64,000 nt of DNA from Mucilaginibacter sp. UR6-1 (GTDB lineage: Bacteria; Bacteroidota; Bacteroidia; Sphingobacteriales; Sphingobacteriaceae). Shown piece by piece: positions 6,241 through 54,775 of the stretch. Positions within the stretch are counted from its first letter, which is position 1; each line of letters begins with the position of its first letter. The translations under genes and the position numbers were made by a program. The DNA lies in NCBI RefSeq assembly GCF_020880975.1, contig NZ_JAJIWP010000003.1:310001-374000 (forward strand), in the 5' to 3' direction. The notes under the pieces are model-generated. The model was not told where the DNA came from, did not search any database, and was given only the letters and a program-made list of their open reading frames with translations.

Positions 6241-6276
6241 AATAGCCTTGCCTGCATACAGGTAAGGCTATTTTGT
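6241..6276 (+). terminator. Terminator after gmd-fcl
   Basis: Fourteen-base arms (starting AATAGCC and ending GGCTATT) around a CATA loop, one G-T pair, followed by a T-rich run TTGTTTAT. It starts 20 bases after the fcl stop. Confidence 0.85.
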
Positions 6277-6283
6277 TTATTAC

Positions 6284-6314
6284 TTGCCTGTTTTAACCCT
6301 GCTTAGTACTTTAG
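6284..6314 (+). promoter_or_regulatory. Bacteroidota promoter of the DUF3467 gene
   Basis: TTG at 6284-6286, a 20-base spacer, then TACTTTAG at 6307-6314, a one-base variant of the -7 consensus TAnnTTTG. The box ends only four bases before the ATG at 6319, so transcription is expected to start on or beside the start codon. Confidence 0.6.
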
Positions 6315-6318
6315 TGTT

Positions 6319-6630
6319 ATGGAAGAACAAAACGACAATCAACTGAATATAGAGCTGTCTGAAGAGATGGCCGAGGGCATATACTCAAACCTGGCCATCA
6401 TTACACACTCAACCTCTGAGTTTGTGCTCGATTTTATACGCATTATGCCGGGCGTGCCCAAGGCAAAAGTAAAATCGCGCATTATACTTACCCCCGAACA
6501 CGCCAAGCGGCTCTTAAGCGCTATTGAAGAGAATGTAGCCAAATTTGAAGCCGCGAACGGCCGCATACGCATACCCGATGATAACGGCGGTTTCCCCATG
6601 AACTTTGGCGGGCCGGTAGGGCAGGCTTGA
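6319..6630 (+). CDS. DUF3467 domain protein
   Basis: 103 residues, essentially all of it one DUF3467 domain, a small protein family common in Bacteroidota with no established function. It has an acidic N terminus, a core with YSNLAIITHSTSEFVLDF (about residues 22-39) and a glycine/proline-rich tail ending GGPVGQA. There is no signal peptide or membrane segment, so it should be cytoplasmic. It has its own promoter just before the ATG and a strong terminator 70 bases after the stop, so it is a single-gene unit. The start is well fixed, because the promoter box lies only four bases before it. Function unknown. Confidence 0.9.
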   Translation: MEEQNDNQLNIELSEEMAEGIYSNLAIITHSTSEFVLDFIRIMPGVPKAKVKSRIILTPEHAKRLLSAIEENVAKFEAANGRIRIPDDNGGFPMNFGGPVGQA

Positions 6631-26405: not shown

Positions 26406-26606
26406 ATGGGATTAGGAACACCGGAAATTATTGTAATCGTTGTGGTGATCTTGTTGCTGTTTGGGGGTAAAAAAATCCCTGAGCTTATGCGAGGTTTAGG
26501 CAAGGGTGTTAAGGAGTTTAAAGATGCGAGCAACAATCCATCTGATGACAATGTTACAACCACGCATACCAACGAGCATACAAACACTACAAAAGCCAAT
26601 TCATAA
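26406..26606 (+). CDS. tatA: TatA-family twin-arginine translocase subunit
   Basis: 66 residues, the usual length of TatA. A membrane helix (about 7-22: [14 protein letters not shown]) leads into the [20 protein letters not shown] amphipathic helix, the TatA signature, and a short Asn/Thr-rich tail. TatA forms the transport channel of the Tat system. It is the second gene of the Tat pair and ends at a terminator before gatA. Confidence 0.9.
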
Positions 26607-26642: not shown

Positions 26643-26687
26643 AAAACTTATCTGTTGATAATTGTACATTCAACGGATAAGTTTTTT
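26643..26687 (+). terminator. Terminator after tatA
   Basis: Sixteen-base arms (AAAACTTATC.. at 26643-26658, ..GATAAGTTTT at 26670-26685), one G-T pair, and a T run running straight into the next promoter. The right arm overlaps the promoter of gatA. Confidence 0.8.
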
Positions 26688-26694
26688 ATTTTAG
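26662..26694 (+). promoter_or_regulatory. Promoter of gatA
   Basis: TTG at 26662-26664, 22-base spacer, TATTTTAG at 26687-26694. The box ends four bases before the ATG at 26699. It is embedded in the terminator hairpin of the tat genes. Confidence 0.5.
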
Positions 26695-26698
26695 CCCC

Positions 26699-28120
26699 AT
26701 GGCTAAATTTTATTCCTCTTTAACTGAAATTAAAAGTAAGTTGCAAAGCGGAGAGGTAACGGTTGCAAAGCTTGTTACCGGTTATCTTGAACAGATCAGT
26801 ACCTACGCTCACCTGAATGCCTTTAACGAGGTTTTTGCTGATGAAGCCGCCGCGCAGGCCAAACAGGTTGATGCCCGTTTAAAGCAAGGCACCGCAGGCA
26901 GGCTTGCAGGTATGGTTATCGCCATAAAAGATAACATCTGTTACGAAGGCCATAAGGTATCGGCCTCTTCAAAAATCCTTTCAAATTTTACTTCCATATT
27001 CTCATCAACCATAGTTAAGCGTTTGCTTGCCGAGGATGCAGTGATCATTGGTCGTTGTAATTGCGACGAATTTGCCATGGGCGCCGCTAACGAGAATTCA
27101 TATTATGGTGCGGTACGTAACTTTGCTGATAATAACCGTGTTTCTGGTGGCTCGTCAGGCGGGTCGGCGGTAGCTGTGCAGGCCAACATGTGCCATGCCG
27201 CTATCGGTACAGATACCGGCGGCTCAGTAAGGCAGCCCGCGTCATTTTGCGGAATGATTGGTTTTAAACCTACCTATGGCCGTATATCCCGTCATGGTAT
27301 TATAGCGTACGCTTCATCGTTTGATCAGGTTGGGCCTATTACACGTTCGGTTGAGGATGCCGCCCTGTTGTACGAGATCATGGCCGGTGCTGATGATTAT
27401 GACAGCACCTTGTCGCGCAAGGCGGTTAATGCCGCGCCGGTAGTTGCCGATCCATCAAAAAAACGCATTGCATATTTACAGGAAGCCGTATCAAGCAGGG
27501 GCGTAGATAATGATGTTAAAACGGCAATGGTAAATACTATTGATAAACTACGTGCCGAAGGCCATACCGTTGAGCCCATCAGCTTTGAATATCTGGATTA
27601 CCTGGTGCCTACTTATTATATACTGGCCACAGCCGAGGCATCATCAAACCTGGCACGTTATGATGGTGTGCACTACGGCTACCGCAGCCCGGAAGCTACC
27701 GATCTGCAATCAACATACAAAAGATCACGGTCTGAGGGTTTTGGCAAGGAGGTTAAGCGCCGCATTATGCTGGGAACCTTTGTGTTGAGTGCCGGTTACT
27801 ATGATGCCTATTACGCCAAGGCGCAAAAGGTACGTAGGCTGATCCGTACAAAAACCGAGGAGATACTTAACCAGTACGATTTTTTATTAGTACCAACGGC
27901 TCCTGAACCTGCCTTTGAGATAGGTAAAGGTGAAACTGACCCGGTGCGCTCATACCTTGCCGATATATTTACCGTACAGGCATCATTAGCCGGTGTGCCG
28001 GCAATATCATTACCCGTGGGCAATAATAGTAAGGGATTGCCGTTAGGGTTACAATTGTTAGCCAAACACTTTGCAGAGCAGGAGCTATTCAACTTCGCTG
28101 AATATTTCCTCAAACTATAA
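26699..28120 (+). CDS. gatA: Aspartyl/glutamyl-tRNA amidotransferase subunit A
   Basis: 473 residues, typical for GatA. It releases ammonia from glutamine, which GatB uses to turn Glu-tRNA(Gln) or Asp-tRNA(Asn) into the amidated form. The Ser-cisSer-Lys triad is present: Lys77 in AIKDNI, the cis-Ser152 in GGSSGGSA, and the nucleophile Ser176 in TDTGGSVRQP. The start codon follows a promoter box by only four bases. gatB and gatC are not in the window. Confidence 0.96.
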   Translation: MAKFYSSLTEIKSKLQSGEVTVAKLVTGYLEQISTYAHLNAFNEVFADEAAAQAKQVDARLKQGTAGRLAGMVIAIKDNICYEGHKVSASSKILSNFTSIFSSTIVKRLLAEDAVIIGRCNCDEFAMGAANENSYYGAVRNFADNNRVSGGSSGGSAVAVQANMCHAAIGTDTGGSVRQPASFCGMIGFKPTYGRISRHGIIAYASSFDQVGPITRSVEDAALLYEIMAGADDYDSTLSRKAVNAAPVVADPSKKRIAYLQEAVSSRGVDNDVKTAMVNTIDKLRAEGHTVEPISFEYLDYLVPTYYILATAEASSNLARYDGVHYGYRSPEATDLQSTYKRSRSEGFGKEVKRRIMLGTFVLSAGYYDAYYAKAQKVRRLIRTKTEEILNQYDFLLVPTAPEPAFEIGKGETDPVRSYLADIFTVQASLAGVPAISLPVGNNSKGLPLGLQLLAKHFAEQELFNFAEYFLKL

Positions 28121-49805: not shown

Positions 49806-49837
49806 TTGAACTGAAAAATTAATACATAATATATTTA
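49806..49837 (+). promoter_or_regulatory. Promoter of the DinB/YfiT gene
   Basis: TTG at 49806-49808, 21-base spacer, TATATTTA at 49830-49837 (one base off TAnnTTTG). Four bases separate it from the ATG at 49842. Confidence 0.6.
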
Positions 49838-49841
49838 GCTT

Positions 49842-50375
49842 ATGCTTACCGACGAACAAATGCGCTACCCGATAGGTAAATTTCAGCCCCCGGCCTCGTA
49901 CACCGATGATGACCTTTACCGCTGGATGAACGATATACGCATGTTGCCCGGGCAATTGCGGCAAGCGGTTATTGGGTTAAATGATGATGACCTGAACACG
50001 CCATACCGCCAGGGGGGCTGGACGCTGCGGCAGGTGGTACACCACGTAGCCGATAGCCACATGAACTCCATTACCCGCATTAAGCTTGCCCTTACCGAGG
50101 ATAACCCAACCATAAAACCCTACGAAGAGGCCTACTGGGCCCTGCAGGCCGATTACCACCTGCCTGTGGAACCATCATTAAAAATGCTGGAAGGTATCCA
50201 TCAGCGCATGATCGCCCTGTTTGAAAGCTTTACCGAAAATGAGTGGGAACGTACCTTCATCCACCCGGAAACAGGTGCTACAAACTCGCTGAAAAAAACT
50301 TTGGCCACCTACTCATGGCACGGCCGTCATCACCTGGCACATATTACCGAAACAAGGAAGAAGTATGGGTTTTGA
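49842..50375 (+). CDS. YfiT/DinB-family bacillithiol-type transferase
   Basis: 177 residues, a four-helix DinB bundle. Its three metal-binding histidines can be placed in VVHHVADSH (about 67-75) and HGRHHLAHI (about 160-168), the YfiT pattern. YfiT/BstA relatives are zinc-dependent thiol-S-transferases that join bacillithiol to electrophiles; many Bacteroidota make bacillithiol, so that role fits. The opening RYPIGKFQPP is typical of the group. It is a single-gene unit convergent with the outer-membrane protein gene, with a C-rich palindrome between them. Confidence 0.85.
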   Translation: MLTDEQMRYPIGKFQPPASYTDDDLYRWMNDIRMLPGQLRQAVIGLNDDDLNTPYRQGGWTLRQVVHHVADSHMNSITRIKLALTEDNPTIKPYEEAYWALQADYHLPVEPSLKMLEGIHQRMIALFESFTENEWERTFIHPETGATNSLKKTLATYSWHGRHHLAHITETRKKYGF

Positions 50376-51780: not shown

Positions 51781-52278
51781 TTATATCGCTACACAATAAA
51801 CCTTCCTACCATCAGGCGCGGCGGTTTTTTGCGGGGCGTACTTTTTGTTGGTGGCTACCGGGGCAAAGCCTTTGTCTAAAAAGGTAATGGTTACCGGGCC
51901 ATTAAGGTCTTTGTCGCTGGCGTTTACCAGGTGAAAATGCTTGCCCGAGTACTCGAACATGTTGTTGCTGAGTTTGGTGCCGGCAAAGTTGTAGGTAGCT
52001 TTCAGGTTGTTTACCGAAAAGCCCGCGCTTTGCACCTTGCTGCTTAATTTATCAAAATCAACAGCCGCATCTTTTTTAAAGGTTACGATGAAGATGTTGC
52101 GGTTCAGATCGGGTTTTACATCGCCCACAAAGCTTAACGAGCGGAGTGATTTTTCGGTAGCTTTTGAGCACATGGAGCAGGTGAGGCCGCTTACCTGTAC
52201 TTCGGCTTTGGTGAATTGAGCTTTGGCAATGCTTATAGAGATAGCCATTATGGCTATGAATATTTTTAAGGTTTTCAT
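51781..52278 (-). CDS. Exported heavy-metal-associated (HMA) domain protein
   Basis: 165 residues. A signal peptide (about 1-20, ending AKAQ) precedes one HMA domain (about 25-95) whose metal site is CSMC in SGLTCSMCSKATEKS, where most HMA domains have CxxC of the type CASC. HMA domains carry Cu(I), Zn or Hg. The C-terminal 70 residues are beta-rich and end KVYCVAI; they are not a known domain to me. It lies between the HYC_CC_PP gene (84 bases upstream) and the outer-membrane barrel gene, so it is likely to hand metal on within the envelope. Confidence 0.85.
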   Translation of the reverse strand: MKTLKIFIAIMAISISIAKAQFTKAEVQVSGLTCSMCSKATEKSLRSLSFVGDVKPDLNRNIFIVTFKKDAAVDFDKLSSKVQSAGFSVNNLKATYNFAGTKLSNNMFEYSGKHFHLVNASDKDLNGPVTITFLDKGFAPVATNKKYAPQKTAAPDGRKVYCVAI

Positions 52279-52362: not shown

Positions 52363-52758
52363 TCAGATACGAATATTGCAGTTGATAAGAAAGATGGAGT
52401 TTTTGCCTTTAGGCGCATCAGGTGGTGGGCCACGGTCAAAAATCTTTTCAAACAAAGCCCTTTGTGCCGATAGGAAGAACTCCTCGAACGGCAACGCGGC
52501 AATATCAAATGAAAATACTTTGCTTAAAAGAGATTGTGGTTTTTCTGCCTGGTGGGCATCCTTTACCTTAACATCTACTTTTTTATCCTTACAGCATTTC
52601 ATTTTTGAAGCCGCTGTTTCGGTATGGCATTTTTTGGCAGGCTGCTCAATTTTTACGGATGCTACCGTTTTGCCGCAGTAATGAAAGTTCAGGGCAAACC
52701 CCGATACCGTAGCAAAGTACAGCAGCAGTAAAGTTATAACGCCTGATCTTTTAAGCAT
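52363..52758 (-). CDS. HYC_CC_PP family metal-linked small protein
   Basis: 131 residues. The family is named for its three motifs, all seen here: HYC in LNFHYCGKTV (about 25-34), CC in KMKCCKDKKV (about 53-62), and PP in RGPPPDAP (about 109-116). An N-terminal signal peptide or membrane helix (about 7-22) places it in the envelope. These proteins are found next to HMA and TonB-dependent receptor genes in Bacteroidota, and a role in copper or other metal handling is suggested by the cysteines but unproved. It has a promoter with a dyad over the -33 box. Confidence 0.85.
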   Translation of the reverse strand: MLKRSGVITLLLLYFATVSGFALNFHYCGKTVASVKIEQPAKKCHTETAASKMKCCKDKKVDVKVKDAHQAEKPQSLLSKVFSFDIAALPFEEFFLSAQRALFEKIFDRGPPPDAPKGKNSIFLINCNIRI

Positions 52759-54010: not shown

Positions 54011-54775
54011 TTATGGGCGCACAGTTGTATTTTCAAAATACTTTAAGCTGAGGCTTTCACCATCAAAAACAGCGTATGAGTTATAGTTGAACCACTCGCC
54101 AAGGTTAATATAGCGGCTGCCCTTGTTTAGTTGTACATCCATAGGCAGGTGCCTGTGGCCGAAGATAAAATAATCGTAATATTTATTTTCAAGCACCTCG
54201 TTGCTAAAGGTTACCAGCCATTCATGCTCGCCGGGTTTAAGGTCAGGCTGTTTTAAGTTAGTATCGCGGCTGTGTTGCGACCACGAGCCCGCGATGCCTA
54301 TACCCAGGTTAGGGTGCAGCCTGGCAAACAGCCATTGGCATAATTTACTGCGGAATACCTTTTTCAGTATTTTATAACTGCCATCACCGGGGCCAAGGCC
54401 ATCACCGTGGTGAAGGAAGAATTTTTTGCCGCCGCGCTCAATCTCCAGTTCATTACTAATAATGGTAGCGTCAAGTTCCTCGGTAAAATAGCTGAACATC
54501 CACATATCATGGTTGCCTTTAAACAGGTATAGTTTTATACCGGCATCGGCCAATTCGGCCAGCTTACCCAAAAAACGGATATAGCCTTTGGGTACTACGG
54601 TTTTATACTCAAACCAAAACTCAAATACATCGCCCATTAAAAATACTTCGGCAGCATCATGCTTAATACTATCCAGCCAGCGAATGATGCGGGCCTCACG
54701 GTTGCGGCTCGGGCCGTAGCTGTCAGTACCCAAATGAAAATCAGATGCGAAGTATAATTTATTGCGTGTAGCCAT
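54011..54775 (-). CDS. lpxH: UDP-2,3-diacylglucosamine hydrolase-like phosphoesterase
   Basis: 254 residues from the ATG at 54775. A TTG three codons earlier also opens the frame, but it forms the end of the promoter box TACTTTTG and cannot be the start. The metallophosphoesterase motifs are complete: ASDFHLG (about 9-15), MGDVFEFW (about 42-49), KGNHDMW (about 76-82), HHGDGL and FGHRH near the end. LpxH removes UMP from UDP-diacylglucosamine in lipid A synthesis; the DVFEFWFEY and HRHLP surroundings fit the LpxH group. Bacteroidota make lipid A, so this function is likely, though other UDP-sugar phosphoesterases share the fold. Confidence 0.85.
   Translation of the reverse strand: MATRNKLYFASDFHLGTDSYGPSRNREARIIRWLDSIKHDAAEVFLMGDVFEFWFEYKTVVPKGYIRFLGKLAELADAGIKLYLFKGNHDMWMFSYFTEELDATIISNELEIERGGKKFFLHHGDGLGPGDGSYKILKKVFRSKLCQWLFARLHPNLGIGIAGSWSQHSRDTNLKQPDLKPGEHEWLVTFSNEVLENKYYDYFIFGHRHLPMDVQLNKGSRYINLGEWFNYNSYAVFDGESLSLKYFENTTVRP

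Follow-up and report, generated by a model that had tools for sequence, protein, structure and literature searches.

A class of leaderless promoters in Mucilaginibacter and other Bacteroidia, predicted from a fixed spacing between the -7 box and the start codon

A minority of genes in Mucilaginibacter sp. UR6-1 and other Bacteroidia carry the -7 box of the primary sigma factor sigma-ABfr exactly four bases before an ATG start codon, and these boxes are very likely promoters from which transcription would begin on the ATG itself, producing an mRNA without a leader. The first-pass annotation of a 64,000-nucleotide stretch of this genome (the window) had named four boxes that each end four bases before an ATG and had proposed leaderless mRNAs as a regular class. 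All four positions agree with the sequence (table 1), and the peak at this spacing is found not just in the genome itself but also among other Sphingobacteriaceae, among other Bacteroidota and across 37 Bacteroidia genomes, as expected of a regular, if minor, class of putatively leaderless genes.

Table 1. Features discussed in the text (window coordinates except for the divergent pairs in genome G100).
Feature	Position	Strand	Sequence context	Basis or remark
-7 box of DUF3467 gene	6307-6314	+	TACTTTAG, then TGTT, ATG 6319	read directly
-7 box of gatA	26687-26694	+	TATTTTAG, then CCCC, ATG 26699	read directly
Candidate -7 box of DinB/YfiT gene	49830-49837	+	TATATTTA, then GCTT, ATG 49842	
-7 box of HYC_CC_PP gene	52770-52763	-	TAGATTTG, then TTTT, ATG 52758(-)	
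TTG, proposed -33 element of DUF3467 gene	6284-6286	+		present; spacing not enriched at leaderless boxes
DUF3467 gene, predicted leaderless	6319-6630	+		Pfam (PF11950)
gatA, predicted leaderless	26699-28120	+		TIGR00132
YfiT family bacillithiol transferase gene, DinB superfamily	49842-50375	+		NF009807, PF12867
HYC_CC_PP family gene, predicted leaderless	52363-52758	-		NF047658
LpxH-like phosphoesterase gene	54011-54775	-		below LpxH cut-off; Metallophos PF00149
Terminator-like stem-loop after upstream GDP-L-fucose synthase gene	6243-6275	+		fold -22.8 kcal/mol
Terminator-like stem-loop (16 bp) before gatA	26643-26685	+		fold -18.4 kcal/mol; sequence
Divergent d=4 gene pairs in G100	C16:39734-39772; C17:29925-29965; C2:124313-124372 (L325/L327); C11:566-627			

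The distance from the end of the box to the ATG (d) was determined in a sample that combines the window with 60 spaced stretches of 20 kb each, amounting to 1.26 Mb of the genome, in which genes were called by a home-made hexamer model that is blind to promoters (some calls took late starts). The 611 ATG genes that have 40 nt or more of space upstream were treated as first genes. Among them the strict box TAHHTTTG occurs 0, 0, 1, 5, 10, 3, 3, 4 and 4 times at d=0 to 8, and the 10 occurrences at d=4 compare with a mean of 2.54 at d=8-33 (p=3e-4), while at the same spacing the reversed motif is absent and the complemented one occurs once. The peak at four, which the first-pass annotation had named as its test, is present in this sample of the genome. 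The relaxed box TAnnTT[TA][GA] behaves in the same way, with 21 occurrences at d=4 where d=8-33 average 7.0 (p=1.4e-5), and its excess persists when the window is left out (18 against 6.7, p=2e-4). Overall, 25 of the 143 strict boxes within 120 nt of an ATG lie at d=3-7. Within the window, 43 called ATG genes have the relaxed box at d=4 in three cases, compared with 12 for all other distances from 0 to 40 taken together; the HYC_CC_PP gene is absent from these calls and adds a fourth case at d=4.

The four boxes of the window are mostly one base off the TAnnTTTG consensus, which is matched by TAGATTTG alone, with one mismatch each in TACTTTAG, TATTTTAG and TATATTTA. The box TAGATTTG contains the G that the mapped promoters of Flavobacterium johnsoniae almost never have (PMC6847099). 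A strict box missing from the earlier list of four, TACTTTTG at 54789-54782(-), ends six bases before the ATG (54775, minus strand) of the LpxH-like phosphoesterase gene. The TTG that had been placed 20-22 bases upstream of each box is indeed present, at 20, 22, 21 and 20 bases, but as a general element it did not hold up: among strict boxes, a -33 TTG at 19-22 bp upstream accompanies 9% of the 64 leaderless ones and 18% of the 208 leadered ones, so that no enrichment is seen at the leaderless boxes. The -33 element is weak in F. johnsoniae as well (PMC6847099). A combined pattern (TTTG-N17-21-TAnnTTTG-N4-ATG) was searched in the whole genome and discarded as too strict for use, giving 10 matches against 4 controls. 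The enriched element corresponds to the -7 box of the sigma-ABfr promoter (TTTG / TAnnTTTG) and differs from that promoter in the lack of enrichment at -33.

The same spacing recurs in related genomes. Four relatives were sampled at 200 kb each, which yields too few genes singly, and were used only as pools. Among 530 first genes of other Sphingobacteriaceae, from which DUF3467-like starts had been removed, d=4 is occupied 8 times against 1.19, and among 235 genes of other Bacteroidota 6 times against 1.08. Counts of the raw pattern TAHHTTTG-Nx-ATG in whole genomes, which are independent of gene calling and were controlled with the reversed pattern, gave 2927 matches at N4, 1459 at N10 and 2375 at N20 in 37 Bacteroidia genomes, corresponding to excesses over the control of 1278, -117 and 655; N4 exceeds N10 in 37 out of 37 genomes. 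An excess at N4 and N20 together with a background level at N10 indicates that promoters placed for no leader and promoters placed for a leader of ~16 nt are two separate classes, a leader of ~6 nt not being in excess. In an extended set of 119 Bacteroidia genomes the ATG pattern at d=4 was found 9277 times against 4344 controls and was the more frequent in 115 out of 119 genomes; related genomes are not independent trials, although 81 genera were sampled. GTG at the same spacing was found 2840 times against 2813 in these genomes, a comparison for which the reversed pattern, an imperfect null throughout, is least suited, and is in excess in families f66 and f69 only. The class therefore depends on AUG, ATG being enriched and GTG not. 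Mycobacteria differ in this respect, having many leaderless genes that start with GTG, whereas in the Bacteroidia GTG shows no excess outside these two families.

The excess is unevenly distributed among lineages. Outside the class Bacteroidia, most of the tallied families of the phylum have a d4/d10 ratio of ~1 to 1.5 (1.06 in f14, 1.28 in f21), the exceptions being f22 (202 against 35) and, more weakly, f10 (116 against 61) and f18 (7 against 3). Three f66 genomes contain 234-317 TAHHTTTG-N4-ATG sites each against ~50 controls (up to 317 against 47), and three f69 genomes 137-190 sites against 6-14 controls in ~2.2 Mb (up to 190 against 10), with GTG starts of f69 also in excess at N4 (64 against 7). 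The f22 excess is seen in genome G199 and in seven other f22 genomes. Families f66, f69 and f22 are possibly leaderless-rich lineages. Among the matches listed first for G100 and G199, most N4 sites open a reading frame of at least 100 codons at the ATG. In G100, divergent gene pairs were observed in which both genes have d=4 and the two -7 boxes lie ~10-30 nt apart (table 1).

The proposed explanation is a sigma-ABfr promoter without a leader. RNA polymerase carrying sigma-ABfr would recognise a -7 box whose end lies 4 nt ahead of the start codon and would start at the fifth base after the box, the A of the ATG, and the ribosome would then begin on the 5'-terminal AUG without leader contacts. 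Such a start fits the ribosomes of this phylum, which do not rely on Shine-Dalgarno pairing. The predicted start of the mRNA on the ATG is deduced from the position of the box, given that the mapped starts of F. johnsoniae lie 4-5 nt downstream of it (PMC6847099). The leadered boxes of the Mucilaginibacter genome show no clear purine peak at this distance, and the assumed start position thus rests on the Flavobacterium data.

The T-rich stretch might alternatively be an A/T-rich translation-initiation context, of low structure or in contact with ribosomal protein S1, with transcripts starting further upstream. An A/T-rich bias near start codons that lack Shine-Dalgarno sites is known in Bacteroidota (PMC5397173, PMC3160421), and leaderless mRNA or S1 signals, not distinguished from one another, were suspected in the phylum by Nakagawa et al. 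(PMC5397173). A translation context would be needed by genes inside operons as well as by first genes. However, the strict box at d=3-7 precedes only 4 out of 487 operon-internal genes (same strand, gap <20 nt) compared with 67 out of 1521 genes preceded by 40 nt of space or more (Fisher p=5e-5), so the signal behaves as a promoter. Since, moreover, the sigma-factor box is enriched and its reversed and complemented forms are not, a purely translational role appears very unlikely. Another possibility is that the annotated ATGs are wrong and that the true starts lie downstream, behind ordinary short leaders, given that start calling is uncertain where Shine-Dalgarno sites are absent and that late starts occur among the gene calls. 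This is extremely improbable in view of the enrichment at an exact spacing for ATG and not for GTG, of the N-terminus of DUF3467, which is conserved from M1 (MEEQN..), and of the reading frames of the four genes, which are closed 4 codons upstream of the ATG in DUF3467 (open frame of 107 compared with 103 aa), 6 in gatA (479 and 473), 1 in DinB/YfiT (178 and 177) and 3 in HYC_CC_PP (134 and 131). No start codon was seen in these 1-6 codons in any of the four genes, which leaves no room for an earlier start.

The class may be real and the four picks nevertheless partly due to chance, as degenerate boxes in AT-rich upstream DNA. With relaxed boxes occurring 7 times per position in 611 genes, about one-third of those at d=4 is background, and both the poor conservation of the DinB/YfiT box and the location of the gatA box inside the U-tract of a terminator would fit such an origin. 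Conservation at DUF3467 and HYC_CC_PP, and in part at gatA, speaks against this reading, which is less likely than not. At 80 named Bacteroidota DUF3467 loci, TAnnTTN[GA] is found at d=4 in 22, at d=5 in one, at d=6 in three and at d=7 in five, and at d=0-3 or 8-12 in none; the loci with a box belong nearly all to Mucilaginibacter, Pedobacter and relatives, nearly all orthologues of Mucilaginibacter and Pedobacter have it at d=4-7, and loci outside the Sphingobacteriaceae mostly have no box. By the DUF3467 protein, species of Mucilaginibacter are the closest named relatives of the source of the window. TAnnTTTG or a near form lies at d=3-6 in most of 30 loci homologous to HYC_CC_PP, whose proteins are mostly 25-47% identical and yet retain the spacing, several with GTG in place of ATG. 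At both genes the spacing is kept within the family while the flanking sequence varies. The gatA box is present at d=4-5 in three congeners, and in several more genera the d=4 position is occupied by TACCTTCA or TATTTTCA, so that the spacing is kept there with another box; others have TTG starts or longer leaders. The DinB/YfiT spacing of four recurs at a single locus (L095; d=3 in L105), which makes this gene a weak example. Leaderless promoters are graded gene by gene: predicted with the greatest confidence for HYC_CC_PP, very probable for DUF3467, probable for gatA and doubtful for DinB/YfiT.

At gatA the promoter appears to be fused to a terminator. The U-tract TTTTTTATTTT of the stem-loop upstream of gatA runs into the -7 box, placing terminator, promoter and ATG within ~50 nt (26643-26699), downstream of a small tatA-like ORF (~26407-26606). 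An Rfam search before gatA gave no match, and no tRNAs were found in the window. The DUF3467 gene of the window itself has its stem-loop separate from the promoter, while among the 27 named Sphingobacteriaceae DUF3467 loci at which a box was detected, 12 have a strong hairpin that adjoins or overlaps it. Judging from fold and position, the U-tract that would end the upstream transcript may also be the -7 box of the next gene at gatA and at such DUF3467 loci. A hairpin U-tract running into or adjoining the DUF3467 -7 box was noted at seven loci, and two further genes of the Mucilaginibacter genome (L017:18437-18820, minus strand, and L023:11489-12259, plus strand) show a strong hairpin followed directly by TATTTTTGCCGC-ATG. 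As a general rule the fusion was rejected: hairpins adjoin 4 out of 25 relaxed codirectional boxes and 42 out of 306 pseudo-boxes, and this lack of genome-wide enrichment indicates a feature of particular genes. A literature search of partial coverage found no report of such an overlap, which is weak evidence of novelty.

Leaderless or near-leaderless mRNAs are already known at 4-13% in Flavobacterium and Bacteroides: 5.5% of mRNAs are leaderless in F. psychrophilum (PMC9723704), 13% of leaders are 10 nt or shorter in F. johnsoniae (PMC6847099) and ~3.7% of 5' UTRs are shorter than 10 nt in B. thetaiotaomicron (PMC7366714), most leaders exceeding 10 nt in all three. The class described here resembles these in phylum, in the -7 box and in being a minority that starts at or near the start codon. 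It differs in that the Flavobacterium and Bacteroides mRNAs were mapped by RNA-seq, whereas the present class is predicted from sequence through an exact spacing peak, a deficit of ~6-nt leaders and conservation at the gene level; no study of transcription start sites in Sphingobacteriaceae was found in a literature search of partial coverage. A survey based on Pribnow-type boxes, which Bacteroidota do not use, for this reason scored leaderless genes in only 1 out of 37 Bacteroidetes/Chlorobi genomes (PMC3160421). The leaderless genes of Actinobacteria and Deinococcus-Thermus, whose TA-like signal lies ~10 nt upstream of the start (PMC3160421), likewise have the box adjoining the start codon but use another sigma box than Bacteroidota. 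Recurring across Bacteroidia, the predicted leaderless class is real and under-counted, comprises a minority of genes and is not an unknown way of starting them. New are the sharp spacing throughout the class, the lack of ~6-nt leaders, the gene-level conservation, the few possibly leaderless-rich families and the terminators whose U-tract appears to double as a promoter box. A broader reading, held only tentatively, is that some Bacteroidota families rely heavily on leaderless starts (f66, f69 with GTG too, and f22), that class-wide avoidance of ~6-nt leaders reflects two discrete translation modes, and that the upstream terminator lends its U-tract as the -7 box in DUF3467 and gatA, so that terminator, promoter and start codon form a single compact element.

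In Bacteroidota, which manage without Shine-Dalgarno starts, a conserved leaderless class that can be recognised in the sequence would provide a start-site rule for gene annotation, DUF3467 and HYC_CC_PP are suitable genes for testing leaderless initiation on Bacteroidota ribosomes, and the class points to families in which such initiation is perhaps common. In many Sphingobacteriaceae the DinB/YfiT and HYC_CC_PP genes are separated by no more than a few kb; homologues of the two were seen near one another in eight of the genomes compared. In the window an HMA-domain gene (51781-52278) is located near both, which suggests a neighbourhood related to metals or thiols.
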